This document shows positions 1 to 20,144 of a DNA stretch of 25,400 nt, piece by piece. Source of the stretch: a virus. The notes under the pieces are model-generated. The model was not told where the DNA came from, ran no database searches, and saw only the letters and a program-made list of their open reading frames with translations. The stretch is from positions 1-25,400 of the IMG/VR virus record IMGVR_UViG_3300009132_000031. One strand, written 5' to 3'. Numbering within the stretch: the stretch's first letter is position 1; each line of letters opens with the position of its first letter. A program made the translations under genes and the position numbers.

Positions 1-26
1 CCACAGGTTATACACAAGGCTCCATG

Positions 27-44
27 TTGGCACGGGTATTGCAT
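27..44 (+). promoter_or_regulatory. Sigma-54-type -24/-12 promoter element 1
   Basis: Reads TTGGCACGGGTATTGCAT. It has the -24 GG (29-30) and -12 GC (41-42) separated by exactly 10 bases, and matches the classical sigma-54 consensus YTGGCACR-N4-TTGCW at every defined position. It is the first of three such elements upstream of the first gene. That it is used is inference: no enhancer-binding activator gene is visible in the window. Confidence 0.6.
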
Positions 45-86
45 GGGTAAAGAGTGAGTATGCCATAGGATACCTATAGCCACATA

Positions 87-104
87 TTGGCACAGATATT
101 GCAT
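87..104 (+). promoter_or_regulatory. Sigma-54-type -24/-12 promoter element 2
   Basis: Reads TTGGCACAGATATTGCAT, with GG at 89-90 and GC at 101-102, again 10 bases apart. It lies exactly 60 bp downstream of element 1. A short palindrome ATAGG-ATA-CCTAT (65-77) lies between the two elements. Confidence 0.58.
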
Positions 105-122
105 GACACAAGCGTACACAAG

Positions 123-140
123 TTGGCACGATTATTGCTA
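123..140 (+). promoter_or_regulatory. Sigma-54-type -24/-12 promoter element 3
   Basis: Reads TTGGCACGATTATTGCTA, with GG at 125-126 and GC at 137-138. It is the element closest to the first gene. A transcript from here would start near position 150 and carry a leader of about 140 nt before the start codon at 289. That leader contains two copies of TCATGCAT (177-184 and 208-215). Confidence 0.58.
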
Positions 141-271
141 CGCGTACACGCGCGTATATATAAAGGTATATTGTAGTCATGCATTAGGCGCATATAGTTT
201 TAATAGGTCATGCATAAAAAGCATTGTACTCTGGCTATCAATTTGATAATATGTGCATACATTCATTGATA

Positions 272-286
272 TAGGTAGGTAGGTAG
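272..286 (+). repeat. (TAGG)n microsatellite forming the Shine-Dalgarno of the first gene
   Basis: TAGGTAGGTAGGTAG is a tetranucleotide tandem repeat ending two bases before the ATG at 289. Each unit provides an AGG Shine-Dalgarno core, so ribosome binding for the first gene rests on a slippage-prone repeat whose copy number would alter spacing. Confidence 0.7.
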
Positions 287-288
287 TT

Positions 289-870
289 ATGACAAAGCTA
301 ACAACAATCAAGCAAGCTAAGGCACTCGCGGCTGATCTAGTGGAAGGTACAGCAGTTAAAACCAAAGTTACCGACATAGTAAGCGAGCTATACAACGTAC
401 ACGTTTCTACTGGGAAGGGTGCGGAAAAGGTACTAGTAGCACTCTGGGAAGGTTGCGCGGTTGATAAGGCATCACTAGCAGTTATTCGGTCAATCTTTAA
501 TAGAGTCACTAAGCGGATACATAAAGAGTTAGACATTGATAAACGCGCTATGGTGGTCAAAGATGGAAAGCTAGTTGAGGCACAGTTGCGCGGTTCTAGT
601 AAAGGCAAAGGCACTGGAGGCGGTGAAGGTGAAGGTGATGGCAGTGAAGCACCTGTAGGTGCAAGTGTAATAGCACCTAATGGTGAAGCGGTGACACCCA
701 TTGAAGCACTCGCGGAGGCCATCTTTCAAGTATCGGCATATGCTGAGGAATTAGCCAAGGTAGAAAAAGATGCAGAGTTGGCTAGTGCAATTGCAACCGC
801 TGATCTGGCCTTGATTGAAATTAAGAATAGATTAGAGGAAACATTGATTCCACTAGATAAAGTAGCATGA
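289..870 (+). CDS. Hypothetical early phage protein with Gly/Lys-rich linker
   Basis: A 193-aa protein I do not recognise. It is the first gene after the sigma-54-like array, so probably among the first expressed. The N-terminal part (about residues 1-100) is mixed-charge and looks helical. Residues about 102-120 form a Gly/Lys/Glu-rich low-complexity linker, and the C-terminal part (about 133-193) is Ala/Glu-rich and probably a helical hairpin or coiled coil. No signal peptide or membrane segment is seen. The start is supported by the AGG-repeat ribosome site just upstream. A host-takeover or DNA-associated role is possible from position alone, but nothing in the sequence shows it. Confidence 0.8.
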   Translation: MTKLTTIKQAKALAADLVEGTAVKTKVTDIVSELYNVHVSTGKGAEKVLVALWEGCAVDKASLAVIRSIFNRVTKRIHKELDIDKRAMVVKDGKLVEAQLRGSSKGKGTGGGEGEGDGSEAPVGASVIAPNGEAVTPIEALAEAIFQVSAYAEELAKVEKDAELASAIATADLALIEIKNRLEETLIPLDKVA

Positions 871-953: not shown

Positions 954-1787
954 ATGATTAAATTGTCAGAGATAAAAAGCAGTACGTTGATAAATTCAGC
1001 GGCTAAACAATGGGCTATTGATAATCTAGACTATTTGAATAAGCCTATAAGGTTTTTCGGTAGCAGTCTAAAGGTTGAAAAAGGTTCAGATAAATACGAT
1101 ACGTACATTATGTATCTACAACCTGCCGATAAGGTAGCCACTGAATCGCTATGCAAATTTGCAGACTTGGCCGGATGCAAAAAACCGTGCTTAATATCTA
1201 GCGGCCAATTGGGTATGAGTACAGGACAGAATGCCGCTACTAAACGCACCATATTAATGCTATTACGTCCTAATCTGTTTGAGAGTGCTTTGTTGTCAGA
1301 GATAGACAAAGCGGAACGCAAAGCGTTAAAAACTGGCATCCCTGCATTATTCAGATTAAACGGCACTAGCGATCTAGATTTTAGTGCTATCATGGCTCAA
1401 CGTCCAAACTCTATGTTTTATGATTATACAAAAATATTGAGTAGAGTACGTAAGAATGCCCTTGATAATTATGATTTAACATTTTCGGGTAGTATGTACA
1501 GCGTACAAAGTAAAACCGCATTACGGAAAGCAGTAGCGTCAAAGTATCGCATAGCTATGGCGTACAATACCAAGGGTTTAGCGGATGATGGATTACAGAT
1601 TAATCACAGTCTAAAATCATTTGATACTACAGACCTGCGCCATTTAGATGATAACGTAGTTGGCACGTTGACGCGTAAAGGTAGCAACAAAAAGGAACGC
1701 GCAAGAGATAATTTGCGGCCTGATTCGTTCTTTGTGACTAGTGCTAACGTACTAGAATTTAATGAAATAATAGCTGTTGGAGGCTAA
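954..1787 (+). CDS. Hypothetical phage protein, possibly GP88-like
   Basis: A 277-aa soluble protein. The layout of a Cys segment (CKFADLAGCKKPC, about residues 67-79), a region rich in Arg/Lys/Leu, then a segment ending in Phe-Tyr-x-Tyr-Thr-Lys (about 155-160) resembles the phage family called GP88 (gene product 88), in which a Cys-rich N-terminal half is followed by a similar aromatic-Tyr-Thr-Lys strand. This is pattern recognition, not an alignment, and the family's function is not established. It ends 3 bp before the next gene, so the two are probably co-transcribed. The start is preceded by CTGGAG and by palindrome copy 1. Confidence 0.8.
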   Translation: MIKLSEIKSSTLINSAAKQWAIDNLDYLNKPIRFFGSSLKVEKGSDKYDTYIMYLQPADKVATESLCKFADLAGCKKPCLISSGQLGMSTGQNAATKRTILMLLRPNLFESALLSEIDKAERKALKTGIPALFRLNGTSDLDFSAIMAQRPNSMFYDYTKILSRVRKNALDNYDLTFSGSMYSVQSKTALRKAVASKYRIAMAYNTKGLADDGLQINHSLKSFDTTDLRHLDDNVVGTLTRKGSNKKERARDNLRPDSFFVTSANVLEFNEIIAVGG

Positions 1788-4095: not shown

Positions 4096-4461
4096 ATGGC
4101 AGTATTAGAAGGTCTATTAGCGTTTGAAAACTTGGAAGAGCATGAGATGTATCAAGGGCAGTCAACTGGTAAGTATTCAGTTGTCCTAACCTTGGATGAG
4201 TCAACTGCTGACGAGTTGGAAGGCAAAGGTGTTAAGTTGCGTGAGTATGAGGGCGCAAAGCAACGGAAGTTCTCAACTAAGTACAGTGTGCCTGTGCTTG
4301 ATGCTGATGGTGGTGCTTTCAAAGGTCGCATAGGCAGAGGGTCTAAGGTTCGTGTACTATGGGCAGAAGGTCAGCCCCATCCTGTACATGGGATGGCTAC
4401 CTACCTTAATAAGATCAAGGTCTTAGAGGTAGCGGAAGATACTGGTGGAGAGGACTTCTAG
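4096..4461 (+). CDS. Single-stranded DNA-binding protein (T7 gp2.5-like)
   Basis: A 121-aa protein that would coat single-stranded DNA at the fork and recruit helicase and polymerase. The strand-rich sequence (YSVVLTLD, KFSTKYSVPVLD, GSKVRVLWA, YLNKIKVLEV) fits one OB-fold. The C-terminus is acidic and ends in Phe (EDTGGEDF), the tail type through which T7 gp2.5 and bacterial SSBs contact partners. It is shorter than T7 gp2.5 (232 aa), resembling the compact SSBs of marine podophages. It is followed immediately, with no gap, by the primase-helicase gene, and AGAGGT precedes its ATG. Identification rests on tail, fold pattern and position. Confidence 0.82.
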   Translation: MAVLEGLLAFENLEEHEMYQGQSTGKYSVVLTLDESTADELEGKGVKLREYEGAKQRKFSTKYSVPVLDADGGAFKGRIGRGSKVRVLWAEGQPHPVHGMATYLNKIKVLEVAEDTGGEDF

Positions 4462-6081
4462 ATGACATCCTCGTTTGTCAGGCATGAGCCATGCCCTAAG
4501 TGTGGCTCAAGGAATAACTTGGCGAGGTATTCCGATGGTCACGCCACCTGTTTTTCAGGTGGTTGTGACTACTACGAGAAAGGTAACGGTCAGGTTATAG
4601 AACAAGCAACACAACGAAAAGCGAGGCATTTGGAAATGACAGGAACAGTAGCGGCAATCCCTGACAGGAGAATAAGTCAAGAGGTGGCTAAGAAGTACGG
4701 AGTCACCGTTGAGTTTGCCCCTGATGGGAAGGTCAGTAAACATCATTACCCATACCATGATAAGGACTCAGGTGCAGTGTTAGGCACTAAGGTACGCATC
4801 GTGGACAACAAGAACTTTTATGCTACAGGAGAATTTAATAATGTTGGGTTGTTCGGTCAACAAGCTTTCAAGAGTGGCGGTAAGTACATTACGGTCACAG
4901 AGGGCGAGGCAGACGCACTTGCCGTTCACGAAATGTTTGACGGAAAATGGCCTGTTGTCTCCATTAGAAGTGGCGCAAGCGGAGCATCAAAAGACATTAA
5001 AGAAAACCTTGAGTGGTTAGAGTCCTTTGAGAATGTGGTCATATGTTTTGATGCGGATAAAGCAGGGCAGTTAGCGGCTAAGTCAGTCCTTGATTTGTTC
5101 ACCCCTAACAAGGCAAAGAATGTTGTATTATCCATGAAGGATGCGGGGGATATGCTCAAGGCTAACAAGGTCACTACCTTTGTTCGTGAGTGGTGGAACG
5201 CTAAGTCATATCAGCCCGATGGAATCATTGCAGGTAGTGAGACTTGGGATTTAATCATCAAGCAATCCGATGTTAAGTCCATCCCCTATCCTTGGGCTTG
5301 TCTGAATGAGTACACCTACGGATTCCGTCCGCGTGAGTTAGTCACAATCACTAGTGGCAGTGGCATGGGTAAGTCTCAAATGGTACGTGAGTTAGAGCAT
5401 TACCTGTTAGGTGCTACGGAGGACAACATAGGCATCCTAGCGTTGGAAGAGGACATACCTAAGACAGCATTAGGCATCATGTCCATTGAAGCTGAGAAGC
5501 AACTACATCTTAACCAATCTATCTCTGAGGAAGAGAAGAGAAGGTATTGGGATAAGACGTTAGGCTCTGGGCGCATCTATATGTTTGATCACTGGGGTTC
5601 TACTAATGAGGACAACCTACTTGGGCGCATACGTTATATGGCTAAAGGGTTGGACTGTAAGTGGATCATCCTAGATCACCTGAGCATTGTGGTTAGTGAT
5701 CAGGACAACGGTGACGAGCGTAAAGCCATCGACAGCATTATGACTAACCTTAGAAAGCTAGTTCAGGAGACAGGTGTAGGGCTATTCCTAGTATCACACT
5801 TGCGTAGACCTAGCGGATCAAAGGCGCATGAAGATGGCGGTAAGATTAGTTTAGGAGAACTCAGAGGTTCAGCGGCTATTGCACAGCTAAGTGATATGGT
5901 CATTGGACTTGAACGAGATCAGCAACACGCTGACCCTGAGACACGGAACACCACAACAGTTCGTGTACTCAAGAACAGATTTGTTGGACTCACTGGTGCG
6001 GCTTGTTACCTTTACTACGATAAAGAGACAGGTCGGATGATTGAAACTAGTTGCCCTATGGGTGAAGAATCGGAGTTTTAA
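4462..6081 (+). CDS. Bifunctional primase-helicase (T7 gp4-like)
   Basis: A 539-aa replicative enzyme that makes RNA primers and unwinds DNA ahead of the polymerase. An N-terminal zinc-binding domain has C11, C14, C30 and C35. The TOPRIM primase fold follows, with the Glu motif in VTEGEADALA and the Asp motif in VVICFDADKAG. The C-terminal RecA-like hexameric helicase has Walker A GSGMGKS (299-305) and a Walker B-like segment WIILDHLSIVVSD, close to the T7 version. Length is close to T7 gp4 (566 aa). The ATG directly follows the SSB stop codon, with GGAGG in the end of the SSB gene, so the two are coupled. All key motifs are intact. Confidence 0.95.
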   Translation: MTSSFVRHEPCPKCGSRNNLARYSDGHATCFSGGCDYYEKGNGQVIEQATQRKARHLEMTGTVAAIPDRRISQEVAKKYGVTVEFAPDGKVSKHHYPYHDKDSGAVLGTKVRIVDNKNFYATGEFNNVGLFGQQAFKSGGKYITVTEGEADALAVHEMFDGKWPVVSIRSGASGASKDIKENLEWLESFENVVICFDADKAGQLAAKSVLDLFTPNKAKNVVLSMKDAGDMLKANKVTTFVREWWNAKSYQPDGIIAGSETWDLIIKQSDVKSIPYPWACLNEYTYGFRPRELVTITSGSGMGKSQMVRELEHYLLGATEDNIGILALEEDIPKTALGIMSIEAEKQLHLNQSISEEEKRRYWDKTLGSGRIYMFDHWGSTNEDNLLGRIRYMAKGLDCKWIILDHLSIVVSDQDNGDERKAIDSIMTNLRKLVQETGVGLFLVSHLRRPSGSKAHEDGGKISLGELRGSAAIAQLSDMVIGLERDQQHADPETRNTTTVRVLKNRFVGLTGAACYLYYDKETGRMIETSCPMGEESEF

Positions 6082-6083
6082 GC

Positions 6084-7814
6084 ATGAAACAGTTTGTACT
6101 TGACATTGAAGCCAATGGCCTTGACCCTGATACCGTGTGGTGTATTGTTGTGCAACAAATAGGACACGATGATTCCCTTACTTGGTCAGGAGATAGACTA
6201 CCTGAATTTATAACTTGGTTACAACTTCAGGACGAGTGCGAACTAATTGGTCACAATCTTATAGGATATGACATACCTGTACTGGAGAAACTATTAGCGG
6301 TAGACTTTAGCAAGTGTAAAATAACTGACACACTGGTAATGTCCCGATTAGCTAATCCATCAAGAGAGGGTGGTCATTCCTTAGATAACTGGGGTACTGT
6401 GCTTAAATGCCCCAAAGGAGATCATAATGTTTGGGATGTTTTTTCGTATGATATGTTGGAGTATTGTATACAGGATGTTAGAGTTAATACGTTGGTGTAC
6501 AAGAGATTGCTTTCTGAACTTAGAGGTTTTGAGCCTGAGAGCATTGATCTTGAGCATCAAGTACAGAGCATTGTTACTCAGCAGATTAAAAATGGTTGGC
6601 TCTTAGACCAAGGAAAGGCATATAATTTATTGGCTACATTAAAGGAGAAAAAGAATGACCTTGAAGACGAAGTATTATCAACTTTCAAACCGTTACCTAC
6701 ATTCATTAAGGAGATCACGCCTAAGATTAAGAAGGACGGTACGCTCTCTGTTGTAGGTCTAAAGTTTCTGGGTGATCAATGGGAGACAGTAGTAGCACCC
6801 TTTAGTCGTATAGATTTTCCCATCTTTAATCTAGGGTCAAGACAGCAGATAGGTAGACATCTACAATACTATGGATGGAAACCTAAGCAATTCACTGAGA
6901 CAGGACAGGCCATCGTTGACGAGGCGGTGCTAGGTACAGTGAAGGGCATACCACAGGCCGCTTTGATAGCTGAGTATCTTATGATACAAAAGCGTGTGGC
7001 TCAGGTTCAGAGTTGGTTGGAGGCTGTTAAGGAGGACGGAAGAGTACATGGATATGTCAACGCCAATGGAGCAGTGACAGGACGTATGACTCATTCAAGT
7101 CCTAACATGGGTCAAGTACCTGCGGTAGACAAGCCGTATGGTAAGCAGTGCAGGGACGTATGGACAGTACCAGAAGGTTACAAACTTGTAGGTATGGACG
7201 CAAGCGGTCTTGAGTTACGGATGCTTGCACATTACATGAACGATGAGGGCTATACAAATGAAATTCTCACAGGAGACATTCACACGGCAAATAAGTTGGC
7301 TAGCGGCCTTGAAACTAGAAACCAAGCAAAGACTTTTATATACGCTTTCCTTTATGGAGCAGGAGATTCCAAAATCGGAAGTATCGTTGGAGGAAGTGCA
7401 AAGGATGGTAAACGACTTAAGGAAAAATTCCTTGCAAATACGCCATCTCTTGGAAGACTACGAGAACGAGTTGGAGTGGCATCTGGAAGAGGCTATGTTC
7501 TTGGCTTGGATGGGCGAAGGGTCTATGTACGGTCACAACACGCGGCACTGAATACTTTGTTGCAATCCGCAGGGGCTGTTGTTATGAAGAAAGCCTTGTG
7601 TTTGTTGGATGAGTACGCAACTAAGTGGAACATTAACTATAACTTTATAGGAAACATACACGATGAAATCCAGACAGAGGTTAGAGAAGAGAAAGCAGAG
7701 GTTTTCGGAAGGCTTGCAACCAGTTGTGTCGAAGCCGCAGGACTCCACTACAAACTCAACTGCCCCCTCGCAGGGGAATTTAAAGTTGGAGATAGTTGGG
7801 CAGACACCCACTGA
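6084..7814 (+). CDS. Family A DNA polymerase with 3'-5' exonuclease (T7 gp5-like)
   Basis: A 576-aa replicative polymerase. The N-terminal proofreading domain is intact: DIE (D7, E9), HNLIGYD (D63) and YCIQD (Y127, D131). The polymerase domain has motif A MDASGLELR (D372), O-helix motif B with R412, K416, Y420 and Y424, and motif C IHDE (526-528). The residue equivalent to E. coli Pol I Phe762 is Tyr420, as in T7. It is about 130 residues shorter than T7 gp5 (704 aa) and I see no region corresponding to the thioredoxin-binding loop, so processivity probably depends on something else. It starts 2 bp after the primase-helicase stop, with GGAG upstream. Confidence 0.95.
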   Translation: MKQFVLDIEANGLDPDTVWCIVVQQIGHDDSLTWSGDRLPEFITWLQLQDECELIGHNLIGYDIPVLEKLLAVDFSKCKITDTLVMSRLANPSREGGHSLDNWGTVLKCPKGDHNVWDVFSYDMLEYCIQDVRVNTLVYKRLLSELRGFEPESIDLEHQVQSIVTQQIKNGWLLDQGKAYNLLATLKEKKNDLEDEVLSTFKPLPTFIKEITPKIKKDGTLSVVGLKFLGDQWETVVAPFSRIDFPIFNLGSRQQIGRHLQYYGWKPKQFTETGQAIVDEAVLGTVKGIPQAALIAEYLMIQKRVAQVQSWLEAVKEDGRVHGYVNANGAVTGRMTHSSPNMGQVPAVDKPYGKQCRDVWTVPEGYKLVGMDASGLELRMLAHYMNDEGYTNEILTGDIHTANKLASGLETRNQAKTFIYAFLYGAGDSKIGSIVGGSAKDGKRLKEKFLANTPSLGRLRERVGVASGRGYVLGLDGRRVYVRSQHAALNTLLQSAGAVVMKKALCLLDEYATKWNINYNFIGNIHDEIQTEVREEKAEVFGRLATSCVEAAGLHYKLNCPLAGEFKVGDSWADTH

Positions 7815-7833
7815 TCTATTACCTGCTAATCCT

Positions 7834-8397
7834 ATGGGCAATAAGATAAGAAAACCTGAAAGATATAGATTTGAAGAGGGAGAGTGGTGGTATTATTATC
7901 CAGAAAGTGGTACTAGCATTGAATCAGGAAACCATATTAAAGAAAGAGCAACTACTTTAAGACGTAAGTTAGATAAGATTAATACAGAAAAGAAAAAGCA
8001 TATGTATGTTAACGGTCAAAGGATTCCTAATACACACCCCTTGTACAAAGCAGGGAGATACAAAGGTTTTGAGGAAGCGGCCTTTAGTTCCTTGGAAAAC
8101 TACAAGGAGAGTGCGGAAGGTGAGGTATACATTATCACCAACAAAGCTTGGGACGGTTGGGTCAAGGTAGGTATGGCTGTGGACGCTGAAGATAGGTTAA
8201 AAAACTATCAAACCTCTTCCCCTTTCAGAGATTATGTGTTATACTATAGTTATAAGACTGATGATAGACGTAAGGCTGAATCCAACGCCCACTCAAGATT
8301 AGAGCAGTTGTTTGAAAGGAATAACGAGTGGTTCAAATGTACACCACATGAAGCCAAGGGGGTTTTAAGTGAACAACAACAACAAGACAACGGATAA
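7834..8397 (+). CDS. T5orf172/GIY-YIG-type nuclease domain protein
   Basis: From the ATG at 7834 this is a 187-aa protein. The C-terminal domain has the T5orf172 (GIY-YIG superfamily) signature: EVYIITN (97-103), WVKVGMA (109-115), conserved Arg121 in EDRLKNYQTSSPFRD, Glu139 in RKAES, and a final EWFKC. The first ~90 residues are charged and aromatic, possibly a DNA-binding region. The start is uncertain. No Shine-Dalgarno precedes 7834. The frame stays open upstream inside the polymerase gene, with alternatives at 7786 (TTG, AGGGGA upstream) and 7663 (ATG). It could be a homing-type endonuclease lodged beside the polymerase, or a DNA-processing nuclease of the replication module. Confidence 0.83.
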   Translation: MGNKIRKPERYRFEEGEWWYYYPESGTSIESGNHIKERATTLRRKLDKINTEKKKHMYVNGQRIPNTHPLYKAGRYKGFEEAAFSSLENYKESAEGEVYIITNKAWDGWVKVGMAVDAEDRLKNYQTSSPFRDYVLYYSYKTDDRRKAESNAHSRLEQLFERNNEWFKCTPHEAKGVLSEQQQQDNG

Positions 8398-9262
8398 CCT
8401 TGTTGCTGACATCTACGATCTAATGGTTAGTAAGGATGCTGATTCATCCGTAGACGTTGAAGCAGAGATTGATAAGTTTGGTGAAGGTGTTAAGGCTCTT
8501 ATGCGTACAGAGTTTGGACAGGAGAAGCGTAAGGATAACCGTAAGCTACGCTTGTCTAACATCGGACGCACTGATCGCTACCTTTGGAATCATGTCAATG
8601 GTACTGAGGGCGAGGACATCTTACCACACACGTATGTGAAGTTTATGTACGGTCACTTGATTGAGGAGATGTTGTTATTCCTTACTCGTATGGCAGGACA
8701 TAGTGTAACTGACGAACAGAAGGTATGTAAAGTTGAAGGTATTGTGGGTCACATGGACTGCAAGATTGATGGTGTTGTTACTGATGTCAAGTCAGCAAGC
8801 AGTTATGGGTTTAAGAAGTTCAAGGATGGATCGCTTGCCTTTGACGATCCCTTTGGTTATATTGATCAGATCAAGGCATACGCTCACTCAGAAGGAGACA
8901 GGAAGTTTGGATGGTTAGCTATGGATAAAGCTAATGGTCACTTAACCTATCTCAAGTATGACTTGGATGATGAGCAAGCACCCGTATATAAAGTTCTTTC
9001 TCAACAGGACATAACAGAGAGAGTACGCCACGTAAAAAAGCTAGTAAAGCACCCAGAGCCAGAGTTACTTTGTTACGAGCCTTTGCCCGATGGCAAGTCA
9101 GGCAACTTAAAACTCTCCGTTGGTTGCTCCTACTGTCAATTCAAAAAACATTGCTACCCAGACTTAAGAGTATTCAACTATTCCTACGCTCCTAAGTTTC
9201 TCTGTAAGGTAGTTAAGGAACCAAACGTACAGGAGATCATACTAGATGAAGAAGGTTTTTAG
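8369..9262 (+). CDS. PD-(D/E)XK exonuclease, RecB/Cas4-like
   Basis: A 297-aa nuclease, probably a DNA exonuclease for host DNA breakdown or recombination. RecB-family motifs are visible: GHLIE (95-99), GHMD with D130, D139-V-K141, and QIKAY (167-171). Four cysteines (C235, C253, C256, C262) resemble the cysteines that hold an Fe-S cluster in Cas4/AddB-type nucleases, though cluster binding is inference. The start is a GTG at 8369 with a strong AAGGGGG site; it overlaps the end of the preceding gene by 29 bases. In T7 the comparable position is filled by the unrelated gp6 exonuclease. Confidence 0.85.
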   Translation: MNNNNKTTDNLVADIYDLMVSKDADSSVDVEAEIDKFGEGVKALMRTEFGQEKRKDNRKLRLSNIGRTDRYLWNHVNGTEGEDILPHTYVKFMYGHLIEEMLLFLTRMAGHSVTDEQKVCKVEGIVGHMDCKIDGVVTDVKSASSYGFKKFKDGSLAFDDPFGYIDQIKAYAHSEGDRKFGWLAMDKANGHLTYLKYDLDDEQAPVYKVLSQQDITERVRHVKKLVKHPEPELLCYEPLPDGKSGNLKLSVGCSYCQFKKHCYPDLRVFNYSYAPKFLCKVVKEPNVQEIILDEEGF

Positions 9263-9626
9263 ATCAGGACTTGAGTCTGCTCTTTATGATCAACTTAATA
9301 AAGAGTTTAAGTATGAGCCGTACAAACTACCTTATGTTATACGTAAGAATTATCTTCCAGACTTTGTACATGAAAGCAAGAAGATATTGATTGAGGCTAA
9401 GGGTTACTTTAGAGTTGGGGACACACAGAAATACACAGCCATAAGAGATTCTATCGGAGATTGGGAGTTAGTATTTGTGTTGTCAGACCCTAACAAAAAA
9501 GTAAGGAAGGGTAGCAAGATAACTATGGGGCAGTGGTGTGATAAGGAAGGCTTTGCTCACTTCACTGTGAAGACAACTAAAGAGTTACTGAAGTATGTGA
9601 GGAATAAAAATGTCACTAACACTTGA
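9246..9626 (+). CDS. T7 endonuclease I-like Holliday junction resolvase
   Basis: A 126-aa enzyme that cleaves branched DNA during recombination and packaging. The N-terminus FRSGLE matches T7 gp3 exactly, and the metal-binding residues are present: E10, D39 (in YLPDF), E50 and K52 (in IEAKG). The following TQKYTAIRDSIGDWELVFVLSD and MGQWCDKEGF also parallel T7 gp3 segments. It is slightly shorter than T7 gp3 (149 aa). It overlaps the exonuclease gene by 17 bases, with GGAG about 9 bases before the start. Confidence 0.92.
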   Translation: MKKVFRSGLESALYDQLNKEFKYEPYKLPYVIRKNYLPDFVHESKKILIEAKGYFRVGDTQKYTAIRDSIGDWELVFVLSDPNKKVRKGSKITMGQWCDKEGFAHFTVKTTKELLKYVRNKNVTNT

Positions 9627-9780
9627 GGAATTAAAGGAAGAAGTAATCAGGGAGTATGATGTTGTTCTATTGTGTGAAGTGTTGGACATAACCCCTGAAG
9701 ATATTTTAGATGCTTTTGAAGATCGTTTAATTATTAATAGAGATAAATTTACAGAGGATGATGATTATGAGACTGAATGA
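9610..9780 (+). CDS. Small acidic protein (56 aa)
   Basis: A short gene from the ATG at 9610 to the TGA at 9778-9780, filling the gap between the resolvase and DUF3310 genes and overlapping both (by 17 and 23 bases). The product is very acidic and helical: SLTLEELKEEVIREYDVV, then a CEVLDITPEDILDAFEDRL segment. It shows a helix-turn-helix-like look around TPEDILDAF, but its charge argues against DNA binding. Similar short acidic proteins sit in replication modules of other marine podophages, as I recall. Function unknown. Confidence 0.72.
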   Translation: MSLTLEELKEEVIREYDVVLLCEVLDITPEDILDAFEDRLIINRDKFTEDDDYETE

Positions 9781-10111
9781 TGCAACACCTGCTGATTGGG
9801 ATAGAGTAGCTAGGGAACATCCTGCGATAGACCCTAATGATAGTGTAACATTAAAGCCTTATACTGATATGGCAATGGAGGAGGCTCACGATATAATCAA
9901 CAAGCCAAAGCATTACAACACTGGTAACATTGAATGTATTGAAGCCATTGAAGAGTCCATGTCCTCAGTAGCATTCAAGGGCTACCTCAAGGGCAACTGT
10001 ATGAAGTACCTGTGGCGTTATGATTACAAAGGAAGACAGGTAGAGGACTTAAATAAAGCTAAGTGGTACTTAAACAAACTAACCATTATGGTTTCCAAGG
10101 AGAATAGTTAA
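9767..10111 (+). CDS. DUF3310 family protein
   Basis: The DUF3310 pattern is clear: NKPKHYNTGNIECIEAIEES, then YLKGNCMKYLWRYDYKG and DLNKAKWYLNKL near the C-terminus. T7 gp1.7, a nucleotide kinase, is often grouped with this family, so a role in nucleotide metabolism fits, and the next gene is a ribonucleotide reductase. The start at 9767 (114 aa) places GAGG at a good distance. The in-frame ATG at 9758 would overlap that GAGG and give 117 aa. The stop overlaps the reductase start (TAATG). Confidence 0.85.
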   Translation: MRLNDATPADWDRVAREHPAIDPNDSVTLKPYTDMAMEEAHDIINKPKHYNTGNIECIEAIEESMSSVAFKGYLKGNCMKYLWRYDYKGRQVEDLNKAKWYLNKLTIMVSKENS

Positions 10112-11988
10112 TGGAACAGTATCAGTCTTTTATACATAAGTCTCGCTATGCTCGTTGGCTGTCCGATGAAAACCGTAGAGAGACTTGGGAGGAAACAGTA
10201 CAGCGATACGTAGACTTCTGGGTAGGACGTAAGCAGATAGACAAGAGGACAGCCACTAGGCTTTATGACGCTATTCATGCTATGGAAGTTATGCCCAGTA
10301 TGCGATGCTTAATGACCGCAGGTAAAGCCTTAGAGAAGGACAATGTAGCAGGGTTTAACTGTAGTTATCTGCACATAGATTCACCTCGTAGCTTTGATGA
10401 GTTGATGTATGTCCTGATGTGTGGCACTGGTGTAGGCTTTAGTGTTGAACGTAACTTCATCAACAAACTACCTGTGGTTGCTGAGTCCTTTCATCCTACC
10501 GACACAACCATAGTTGTAGCTGATAGTAAGATAGGTTGGGCATCTGCATTCCGTGAGTTGATAGCGATGTTGTACGCAGGGAAGATACCTAAGTGGGACA
10601 CAACTAAGGTACGTCCATCAGGGGCACGTTTGAAAACCTTTGGTGGACGAGCGTCAGGTGCTGAACCCCTTGAGGATTTATTCCACTTCTGCGTAGGTGT
10701 ATTCTCTAAGGCTCAAGGACGTAAGCTGACATCCATTGAGTGTCACGACATCTGCTGTAAGATAGCTGACATTGTAGTAGTCGGAGGTGTGCGTAGGTCT
10801 GCTTTGATTAGCCTATCTAACCTGTCCGACCCACGCATGGCTAAGGCTAAGTCAGGGGATTGGTGGAGACATGAAGGGCATCGTAGGTTAGCTAACAATA
10901 GCGTAGCGTACACAGAGAAGCCTGACTTTGAGTCCTACTTATCTGAGATGCAGACCATGTATGAATCCAAGGCAGGTGAGCGAGGTATCTTTAGTAGAGT
11001 TGCGGCACAGAAGATAGCCGCGAGGAATGGCCGTAGAGAGTCTGAGCAGGACTTTGGTACTAACCCTTGCAGTGAGATCATATTACGTAGCAATCAGTTC
11101 TGTAATCTATCTGAGGTGGTTGTACGTGCTGATGATACAGTGGAAAGCCTTAAGAAGAAAGTTGAAGTAGCTACGATCATCGGTACACTACAGTCTACCT
11201 TGACGGACTTCAGATACCTGAGAAACATTTGGAAAAAGAATACTGAGGAAGAGGCTTTGTTAGGTGTCAGCTTAACAGGCATCATGGACAACAAACTGTT
11301 GAACCAACAAACGGAGACCATTGCAGATGATTTGGGAATACTTAGAAGAGTTGCTGTTGACACGAATAAAAAGTGGGCTGAAAAGCTTGGCGTTAATCAC
11401 TCTACAGCTATTACTTGTGTTAAACCAAGCGGTACTGTATCTCAGCTTGTTGATTCTGCCTCTGGTATTCACCCTCGTTTCTCTCCTAACTATATCAGAA
11501 GAGTACGTTCGGACAAGAAAGACCCACTTGCAATCTTTATGGAGGCCGCAGGTTTCCCAGTAGAACAAGATATAATGTCTAAGGAATCGGTGGTATTTAG
11601 TTTCCCTGTGAAATCCCCTGAAGGTTCTGTAACTGTAAACCAAGTAGGTGCAATGGAACAGTTAAAACTTTGGAAGGTTTATCAAGATCACTGGTGTGAG
11701 CATAAGCCAAGTATCACTGTTTATTATACAGATGATGAGTTCCTTGAAGTTGCTCAGTGGATTTGGGAAAACTTTGATACCGTTAGTGGTATTAGTTTGT
11801 TGCCAGTAACTGATCATGTGTATCAGCAAGCCCCTTACGAGGACATTAGTACTGAGAAGTATGATGAGTTAGTAGCACTAATGCCAGTTGGTATTGATTG
11901 GTCAAACTTAGAATACTTTGAGAAGGAAGACAACACTACAGGTTCTCAAGAGTTAGCGTGTACTGGAGGAGCGTGTGAGATAGTGTAG
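10111..11988 (+). CDS. nrdJ: Class II (adenosylcobalamin-dependent) ribonucleotide reductase
   Basis: A 625-aa enzyme making deoxyribonucleotides for phage DNA synthesis. It resembles the monomeric Lactobacillus leichmannii type. The N-terminal RRETWEETVQRYVDFW is typical of that group. C84 (GFNCSYLH), C320 and E322 (NPCSE) and C331 (FCNLSE) match the first active-site cysteine, the radical cysteine and glutamate, and the second cysteine. The 11-residue spacing between C320 and C331 is as in the family. A C-terminal CTGGAC (C617, C622) supplies the re-reduction pair. No small-subunit or activase gene is adjacent, consistent with class II. AAGGAG precedes the ATG. It is the last gene of the + strand block. 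Confidence 0.92.
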   Translation: MEQYQSFIHKSRYARWLSDENRRETWEETVQRYVDFWVGRKQIDKRTATRLYDAIHAMEVMPSMRCLMTAGKALEKDNVAGFNCSYLHIDSPRSFDELMYVLMCGTGVGFSVERNFINKLPVVAESFHPTDTTIVVADSKIGWASAFRELIAMLYAGKIPKWDTTKVRPSGARLKTFGGRASGAEPLEDLFHFCVGVFSKAQGRKLTSIECHDICCKIADIVVVGGVRRSALISLSNLSDPRMAKAKSGDWWRHEGHRRLANNSVAYTEKPDFESYLSEMQTMYESKAGERGIFSRVAAQKIAARNGRRESEQDFGTNPCSEIILRSNQFCNLSEVVVRADDTVESLKKKVEVATIIGTLQSTLTDFRYLRNIWKKNTEEEALLGVSLTGIMDNKLLNQQTETIADDLGILRRVAVDTNKKWAEKLGVNHSTAITCVKPSGTVSQLVDSASGIHPRFSPNYIRRVRSDKKDPLAIFMEAAGFPVEQDIMSKESVVFSFPVKSPEGSVTVNQVGAMEQLKLWKVYQDHWCEHKPSITVYYTDDEFLEVAQWIWENFDTVSGISLLPVTDHVYQQAPYEDISTEKYDELVALMPVGIDWSNLEYFEKEDNTTGSQELACTGGACEIV

Positions 11989-19911: not shown

Positions 19912-20144
19912 TAGTATGATCCTCCAGAAATAGTATCAGCAGTTATCGTGCCAGTGACATTTAAAGTAGTAGCTGTAACAGTTCCTGTAAACGTAGGACT
20001 AGCTGTGTCTGCTTTTGTTGCACTGGCTGTAGCAATATTATTAAATTCAGAATCTATTTCTGTACCTTTAACAATTTTATTTGGGTCTCCTGAACTTAGA
20101 GAGTCCTTAGTTGCAAAGTTAGTTGTCTTTGTATAATTAGACAT
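19911..20144 (-). CDS. Short tail-fibre-like protein (77 aa)
   Basis: Begins MSNYTKTTNFATKDSLSSGD, a beginning I recognise from N-terminal virion-attachment regions of podophage tail fibres. It continues with EIDSEFNNIATASATKAD and a Thr/Gly-rich TFTGTVTATTLNVTGT stretch typical of fibre shafts, then stops after GGSY. Fibres of this type are usually hundreds of residues long, so this is either a complete small baseplate/fibre-adaptor protein or a truncated fibre. The stop and the next start overlap, as do its own start and the nozzle gene's stop (TAATG at both ends), arguing for a functional coupled gene. Confidence 0.8.
   Translation of the reverse strand: MSNYTKTTNFATKDSLSSGDPNKIVKGTEIDSEFNNIATASATKADTASPTFTGTVTATTLNVTGTITADTISGGSY
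19938..19954 (-). promoter_or_regulatory. Sigma-54-like element inside the 77-aa gene
   Basis: On the minus strand it reads CTGGCACGATAACTGCT: a perfect -24 block, GG and GC 10 bases apart, and one mismatch in the -12 block. It would start transcription about 15 bp before the 899-aa gene's ATG. It lies within coding sequence, so it may be chance. Confidence 0.25.

Follow-up and report, generated by a model that had tools for sequence, protein, structure and literature searches.

Our analysis of the window, that is, of the whole stretch of 25,400 bases studied here, revealed three tandem sigma-54-type sites of exact consensus at the head of a block of phage replication genes. These sites are probably sigma-54-class promoters, at which host RNA polymerase carrying sigma-54 would, together with a host activator, start the replication operon. 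The evidence comprises the sites themselves, their spacing, orientation and conservation, their repeated gain or loss among relatives, a promoter-like element that replaces them and a sigma-70 promoter that faces the opposite way.

Gene content and sigma-54-type sites of the window

The window is an entire virus record, classed as linear and probably a fragment. According to PHROGs and Pfam matches, replication and nucleotide genes occupy the plus strand of its left part and structural genes the minus strand of its right part. The family to which it belongs is one of uncultured, water-borne phages. By polymerase, the Pelagibacter phages HTVC103P and HTVC104P come closest among named phages (52%); in the large terminase, the similarity of the best named relatives amounts to just 33-43% and covers parts of the protein. 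Longer contigs of relatives show what lies left of window base 1, namely a DnaA-box-like cluster and then the small terminase gene, which points away. The relevant features of the window are the following.

8 to 16, plus strand: DnaA-box-like sequence TTATACACA, at the border of a cluster that relatives have in full
27 to 43, plus strand: element 1, sigma-54-type -24/-12 site TTGGCACGGGTATTGCA, exact consensus, 20.26 bits, predicted start at about 54
87 to 103, plus strand: element 2, sigma-54-type site TTGGCACAGATATTGCA, exact consensus, 19.67 bits, predicted start at about 114
123 to 139, plus strand: element 3, sigma-54-type site TTGGCACGATTATTGCT, nearest the genes, exact consensus, 21.64 bits, predicted start at about 150
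139 to 168, plus strand: conserved block TACGCG...CGCG...ATAAAGGTA, just 3' of element 3, around the predicted transcription start
176 to 224, plus strand: direct repeat GTCATGCAT..., copies at 176-193 and 207-224, between the putative promoters and the first gene
289 to 870, plus strand: first gene of the block, 193 aa, no family match
954 to 1787, plus strand: second gene, 277 aa, GP88 family (Pfam PF17338, phrog_1617), used to collect relatives
4096 to 11988, plus strand: replication and nucleotide genes (PHROGs and Pfam matches), encoding an ssDNA-binding protein (weak match), primase/helicase, DNA polymerase A, a T5orf172-domain protein, a Cas4-type exonuclease, an endonuclease, a nucleotide-kinase-like protein and ribonucleotide reductase

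The consensus YTGGCACR-N4-TTGCW, which a preliminary description of this DNA had placed at three points of the plus strand, occurs there without a single mismatch (27-43, 87-103 and 123-139), and the interval from GG to GC is 10 bases in all three sites, as had been stated. The longer pattern given in the same description, TTGGCAC-R-N3-TATTGC, matches none of the three, even when 3 mismatches are allowed. Their true core is TTGGCAC-R-N2-TATTGC, of 16 bp, and since it holds N2 rather than N3, each site ends one base before the end first assigned to it.

The sites were scored with a matrix built from the 42 intergenic sense sigma-54 sites of E. coli mapped by ChIP-seq (PMC4591121, Table 1), the E. 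coli sites themselves being scored leave-one-out. On this matrix the three sites reach 20.3, 19.7 and 21.6 bits, compared with 15.6 (median) and 20.9 (maximum) for E. coli; a single one of the 42 E. coli sites outscores element 1 and none outscores element 3. In dinucleotide shuffles of the window, with the lowest of the three scores as the threshold, 0.0033 sites are expected per shuffled window as against 4 observed, so that chance cannot account for three on the same strand in a span of 113 bp, in agreement with the earlier estimate. No match to a sigma-70 promoter was found in window positions 1-288.

The fourth match bears on the earlier claim that no equally good copy exists elsewhere, which holds for the plus strand and fails on the minus strand. 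There, positions 19938-19954 (CTGGCACGATAACTGCT), just upstream of a large structural gene, score 20.1 on the E. coli matrix. This match is probably a coding coincidence, because it encodes G-T-I-T-A inside a structural gene of 77 aa, and it is absent from the only relative found to carry that gene. Likewise, in relatives a copy on the minus strand, some 3 kb away from the array, was considered as a second promoter and rejected, being coding DNA of the portal gene (FGTGIAE; L014).

Conservation, spacing and orientation in relatives

Relatives were gathered by way of the second gene or the large terminase, the motif playing no part in their choice, and yielded 63 loci with the terminase-replication gap. 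The sites lie in this gap, which separates the small terminase gene from the divergently oriented replication genes, and 29 of the 63 loci have at least one site that faces the replication genes. On the early-facing strand of these relatives, 66 sites have a spacer of 4 nt and none has a spacer of 1-3 or 5-8 nt; conservation of the GG and GC positions, proposed earlier as a test in related phages, holds for these sites. Outside the gap, the same strand holds one site in 311 kb. Site orientation favours the replication genes by 66:7, and by 25:3 among loci with a single orientation, binomial values for these counts serving only as a guide because relatives and tandem copies are not independent.

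Element 1 recurs in most close relatives, and element 2 stands at the same relative place in L007, L012, L014, L015 and L217. With an independent, hand-set weight matrix the loci fall mainly into two classes, those with near-perfect sites and those with none, and intermediate cases are few. Some half of the relatives sampled lack the element, which is thus dispensable in the family, and on a large-terminase tree of 70 loci, some of them chosen by motif, presence and absence change at least 11 times through gain or loss. Among named phages whose replication genes are related, none of HTVC103P, the Puniceispirillum phage HMO-2011, CRP-143 and Slicky01 showed an exact sigma-54 element in the 43-50 kb covered.

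The sites adjoin a DnaA-box-like cluster, of which the window retains the edge. In L014 (9290-9393), seven DnaA-box-like tandem repeats with 11-bp spacing (TTATCCACAGG, TTATACATAAG) lie just left of the sigma-54 sites, and at least two perfect TTATCCACA boxes are present in the terminase-replication gap of 32 of the 63 relatives. These clusters suggest a host-DnaA-dependent origin; no initiator gene was identified. The direct repeat GTCATGCAT at 176-224 may be a repressor, activator or operator site, and palindromic ATGCA...TGCAT elements that resemble it are present in relatives. A pac site close to the small terminase gene was also considered, against which argue the orientation of the sites and the occurrence of such an array in a phage whose large terminase is unrelated.

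A replacement element and an opposite sigma-70 promoter

Some relatives carry another promoter-like element at the place of element 3. In L010, L038, L043, L047, L051, L061 and L249 this is TTGAC[A/T]-N17/18-TA[C/T]TCG, in some cases a close variant with TACTCG, and in most of them it is followed by the downstream block CGCACGCG...ATARAAGGTA, the same as in sigma-54-bearing relatives. The block at 139-168 of the window is accordingly common to relatives with a sigma-54 element and relatives with a TTGAC-type element. The form TTGAC-N17/18-TAyTCG occurs in 13 of the 63 loci and never in the opposite orientation. L010, which keeps site 1, is very close on the large-terminase tree to L014, which bears sigma-54 sites. 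We call the element sigma-70-like by inference from its TTGAC and its spacing, its -10 half being weak. Its occurrence at the place of element 3 is good evidence for a promoter there.

On the terminase-facing side, 51 of the 63 loci have a canonical sigma-70 promoter with an extended -10 (e.g., TTGACTTTTGATTCAGGATATGCTATAAT), among them 24 of the 29 loci that bear sigma-54 sites. It is not visible in the window because the window begins downstream of that point. If both kinds of promoter are used, the terminase and structural genes would answer to sigma-70 and the replication genes to sigma-54.

The preliminary view of three tandem sigma-54-type promoters heading an early gene block is thus supported in part, namely in promoter-like sequence, spacing, orientation, position, conservation and the existence of a replacement element, which together make the match to a sigma-54 promoter as good as sequence alone can show, and the block they head is one of replication genes; "early" is the usual name for such a block and is applied here by analogy with other phages.

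Sigma-54-type arrays beyond the family

Viral contigs were scanned for pairs of exact sites separated by 15-45 bp, which yielded at least 120 stretches, compared with 3 for a five-base spacer and none for the reversed pattern. Positions outside the search pattern also follow the sigma-54 consensus, with Y before TGG in 83% and W after TTGC in 90% of 544 sites. When 123 loci were compared together with the window, 66 fell into one protein-linked group with it and the rest into many small groups. The motif is common to contigs ranging in GC content from 0.32 to 0.67, many of them without detectable mutual protein homology.

Some of these contigs carry far denser arrays. Ten tandem sites, mostly 26-28 bp apart, lie upstream of a gene in L186 (1964-2251), whose 55.9 kb are GC-rich and for which named phages offered no useful match; nucleotide searches with three unrelated array contigs against named phages likewise returned nothing useful. 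In L097 (8237-8447) about nine sites alternate between the strands every 22 and 25 bp, with about 7 bp between opposed -12 halves, and arrays of this type were also seen in L090, L102, L106, L114, L120, L164, L179 and L195. Such dense two-strand arrays are hard to explain as simple separate promoters. Sites of the TGGCAYRATATTTGC type, often paired and about one per gene, characterize the protein-linked contigs L118, L167, L181 and L202, one of which is 224 kb long, and may represent a genome-wide sigma-54 programme or a repeat element. In L148 (6480-6680), sigma-54-type sites are interleaved with TTGACA-N17-TAG elements that hold an inverted repeat (CACATGGG...CATGTG), an arrangement that looks like alternating promoter classes with an operator.

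Polymerase, activator and host

RNA polymerase with sigma-54 requires an AAA+ ATPase activator, and its promoters are silent without one. The activator domain PF00158 was not found in 48 records, most of them fragments, which gives no backing to the earlier suggestion of a phage-encoded activator, and no phage-encoded RpoN was found in the same records. Control genomes were positive for the RpoN and activator family models; the activator model was positive also in organisms without sigma-54 and is therefore not specific there. A single-subunit RNA polymerase (PF00940) was absent from the window and 16 other family records, with CRP-143 positive as a control. The phage should therefore depend on host polymerase, and promoters of a T7-type single-subunit polymerase were rejected, as the cognate polymerase was not found in these 17 records. 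With no activator, RpoN or RNA polymerase found in the records searched, a host activator is the default. The NtrC consensus was not found near the sigma-54 sites, and the usual enhancer distance is occupied by the DnaA-box-like repeats.

A scan of bacterial genomes for triple arrays returned 8 contigs, including a phage contig in an Oceanicoccus MAG. Six sites occupy the same divergent gap in this contig, each of them directed toward the rightward genes, together with the same TTGCTACGCG block. Its large terminase is unrelated to that of the window's family; terminase and portal resemble those of a few array contigs, though only very distantly, and those of the window's family not at all. The MAG encodes RpoN, and the binning of the contig may be wrong. 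A search for the large terminase in 391 genomes of the Oceanicoccus order found nothing. Another of the 8 contigs comes from a Sphingobacteriales MAG and has sequence in common with the window's family. Contigs of the Sphingobacteriales MAG SW22112_bin_1 (L206, L295) carry a large terminase about 80% identical to that of array-bearing family members and DNA related to the family's replication regions, which reflects either a host link or mis-binning.

Alternative explanations

Single matches to the motif do arise in coding DNA, as at 19938-19954 of the window and in the portal gene of L014, and the three sites could in principle be matches of that kind; with 0.0033 sites expected in the whole window at this score, and with the spacing and orientation seen in relatives, the shuffle, spacing and orientation counts already refute a chance origin, and we give it practically no weight. 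It is very improbable that the sites are remnants or decoys that serve fine tuning only, the real promoter being an element missed by the consensus. About half of the sampled relatives manage without the sites, and a TATAAT-like stretch lies nearer the first gene in L005, L010, L014 and L032; against this stand the near-perfect conservation of the sites wherever they occur and the lack of a sigma-70 match in window positions 1-288.

The preliminary description had itself raised iteron-like repeats as an alternative. Iterons, or operators for a phage or other host DNA-binding protein that happens to share the specificity of the sigma-54 consensus, would suit repeats that adjoin an 11-bp-period DnaA-box-like cluster and replication genes, and also the two-strand arrays of sister phages. 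The fit to an experimental sigma-54 matrix, the exact 4-nt spacer, the strong orientation and the promoter-like replacement speak against such a protein, as does the sharing of one motif by contigs so dissimilar in GC content and proteins, which implies a widely conserved ligand. The idea is weakened for the window's family by orientation and replacement, where we regard it as improbable, and is still alive for sister phages with two-strand arrays. We also consider it improbable that the sites serve to hold or titrate sigma-54 RNA polymerase of the host instead of starting transcription, either as a sponge that shuts down host sigma-54 genes (pili, flagella, nitrogen, phage-shock) or as a store of polymerase beside the phage origin. 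The form in which the sigma-54 holoenzyme binds DNA is inactive (PMC4591121), and such a role would accommodate the dense arrays of sister and unrelated contigs (ten tandem sites in L186, nine alternating in L097), the sister-phage sites 22-28 bp apart on both strands, which could hardly work simultaneously as separate promoters, and the excess of paired tandem sites among viral contigs (at least 120 stretches, compared with 3 and 0 in the controls). In the window's family, however, the sites are few and directed toward the replication genes, an orientation that a sponge does not need, and another promoter-like element takes the place of element 3.

Proposed mechanism and comparison with known systems

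If the three sites act as sigma-54 promoters, host RNA polymerase with sigma-54 would sit on them as inactive closed complexes, which a host AAA+ enhancer-binding protein would open with ATP. Transcription would then begin about 12 bases past each GC (near 54, 114 and 150) and proceed rightward into the replication block. The family retains a canonical sigma-70 promoter on the terminase-facing side, so that each half of the genome would be under a host sigma factor of its own, and some lineages have lost the sigma-54 elements and bear the TTGAC-N17/18-TAyTCG element at the same place. In this scheme we infer binding, activation, start points, the host signal that is read and the timing. A more tentative extension, which we hold possible and on balance unlikely, is that dense arrays, of up to ten sites and on both strands, capture inactive host sigma-54 polymerase by the replication module and release it upon a host- or infection-triggered activator, with sigma-70 serving the terminase side; switching with the TTGAC-type programme at that same site would then hand the replication decision to host nitrogen, surface or stress signalling, as a widespread phage strategy.

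With the promoters of bacterial sigma-54 (RpoN), among them glnAp2, pspA and hypA of E. coli, the sites share the form YTGGCAYR-N4-TTGCW with a 10-base interval from GG to GC, tolerance of the same substitutions (C or T, G or A) and the correct orientation upstream of genes; the E. coli ChIP-seq study mapped 135 sigma-54 sites (PMC4591121). Unlike those promoters, the phage sites head a replication block, stand three in tandem (up to ten in other contigs), have no recognised activator site and are replaced in relatives by another promoter-like element. Compared with HTVC103P and HMO-2011, the window has related polymerase, primase or GP88-family genes and the same placing of replication genes on one strand and terminase and structural genes on the other, whereas within 50 kb of each of those phages there is no exact sigma-54 element. 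The early promoters A1-A3 of phage T7 are likewise tandem host-polymerase promoters before the first genes of a block; these are of the sigma-70 class, whereas the window sites are of a type that needs an ATP-driven activator. The phage shock (psp) response is a sigma-54 and PspF system that phage infection can trigger, its promoters belonging to the host and those of the window to the phage. Sigma-54 promoters are well known, and no report of their use in phages, including at the head of a replication block, was found among open PubMed Central papers.

Phage gene expression is normally thought to begin from sigma-70 promoters that need no permission. Near-perfect sigma-54 signals before the replication genes suggest that these phages copy themselves only when regulatory signals of the host permit. 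If so, phage multiplication would be conditional on the signalling state of the host, and there would be a simple reason, at the level of DNA, for infections that stall in some host conditions. Since the structural proteins of relatives can be almost identical while this place holds a sigma-54 element in some and a TTGAC-type element in others, natural promoters can be compared directly. The tandem motif also flags many further contigs of uncultured phages with a possible dependence on rpoN.
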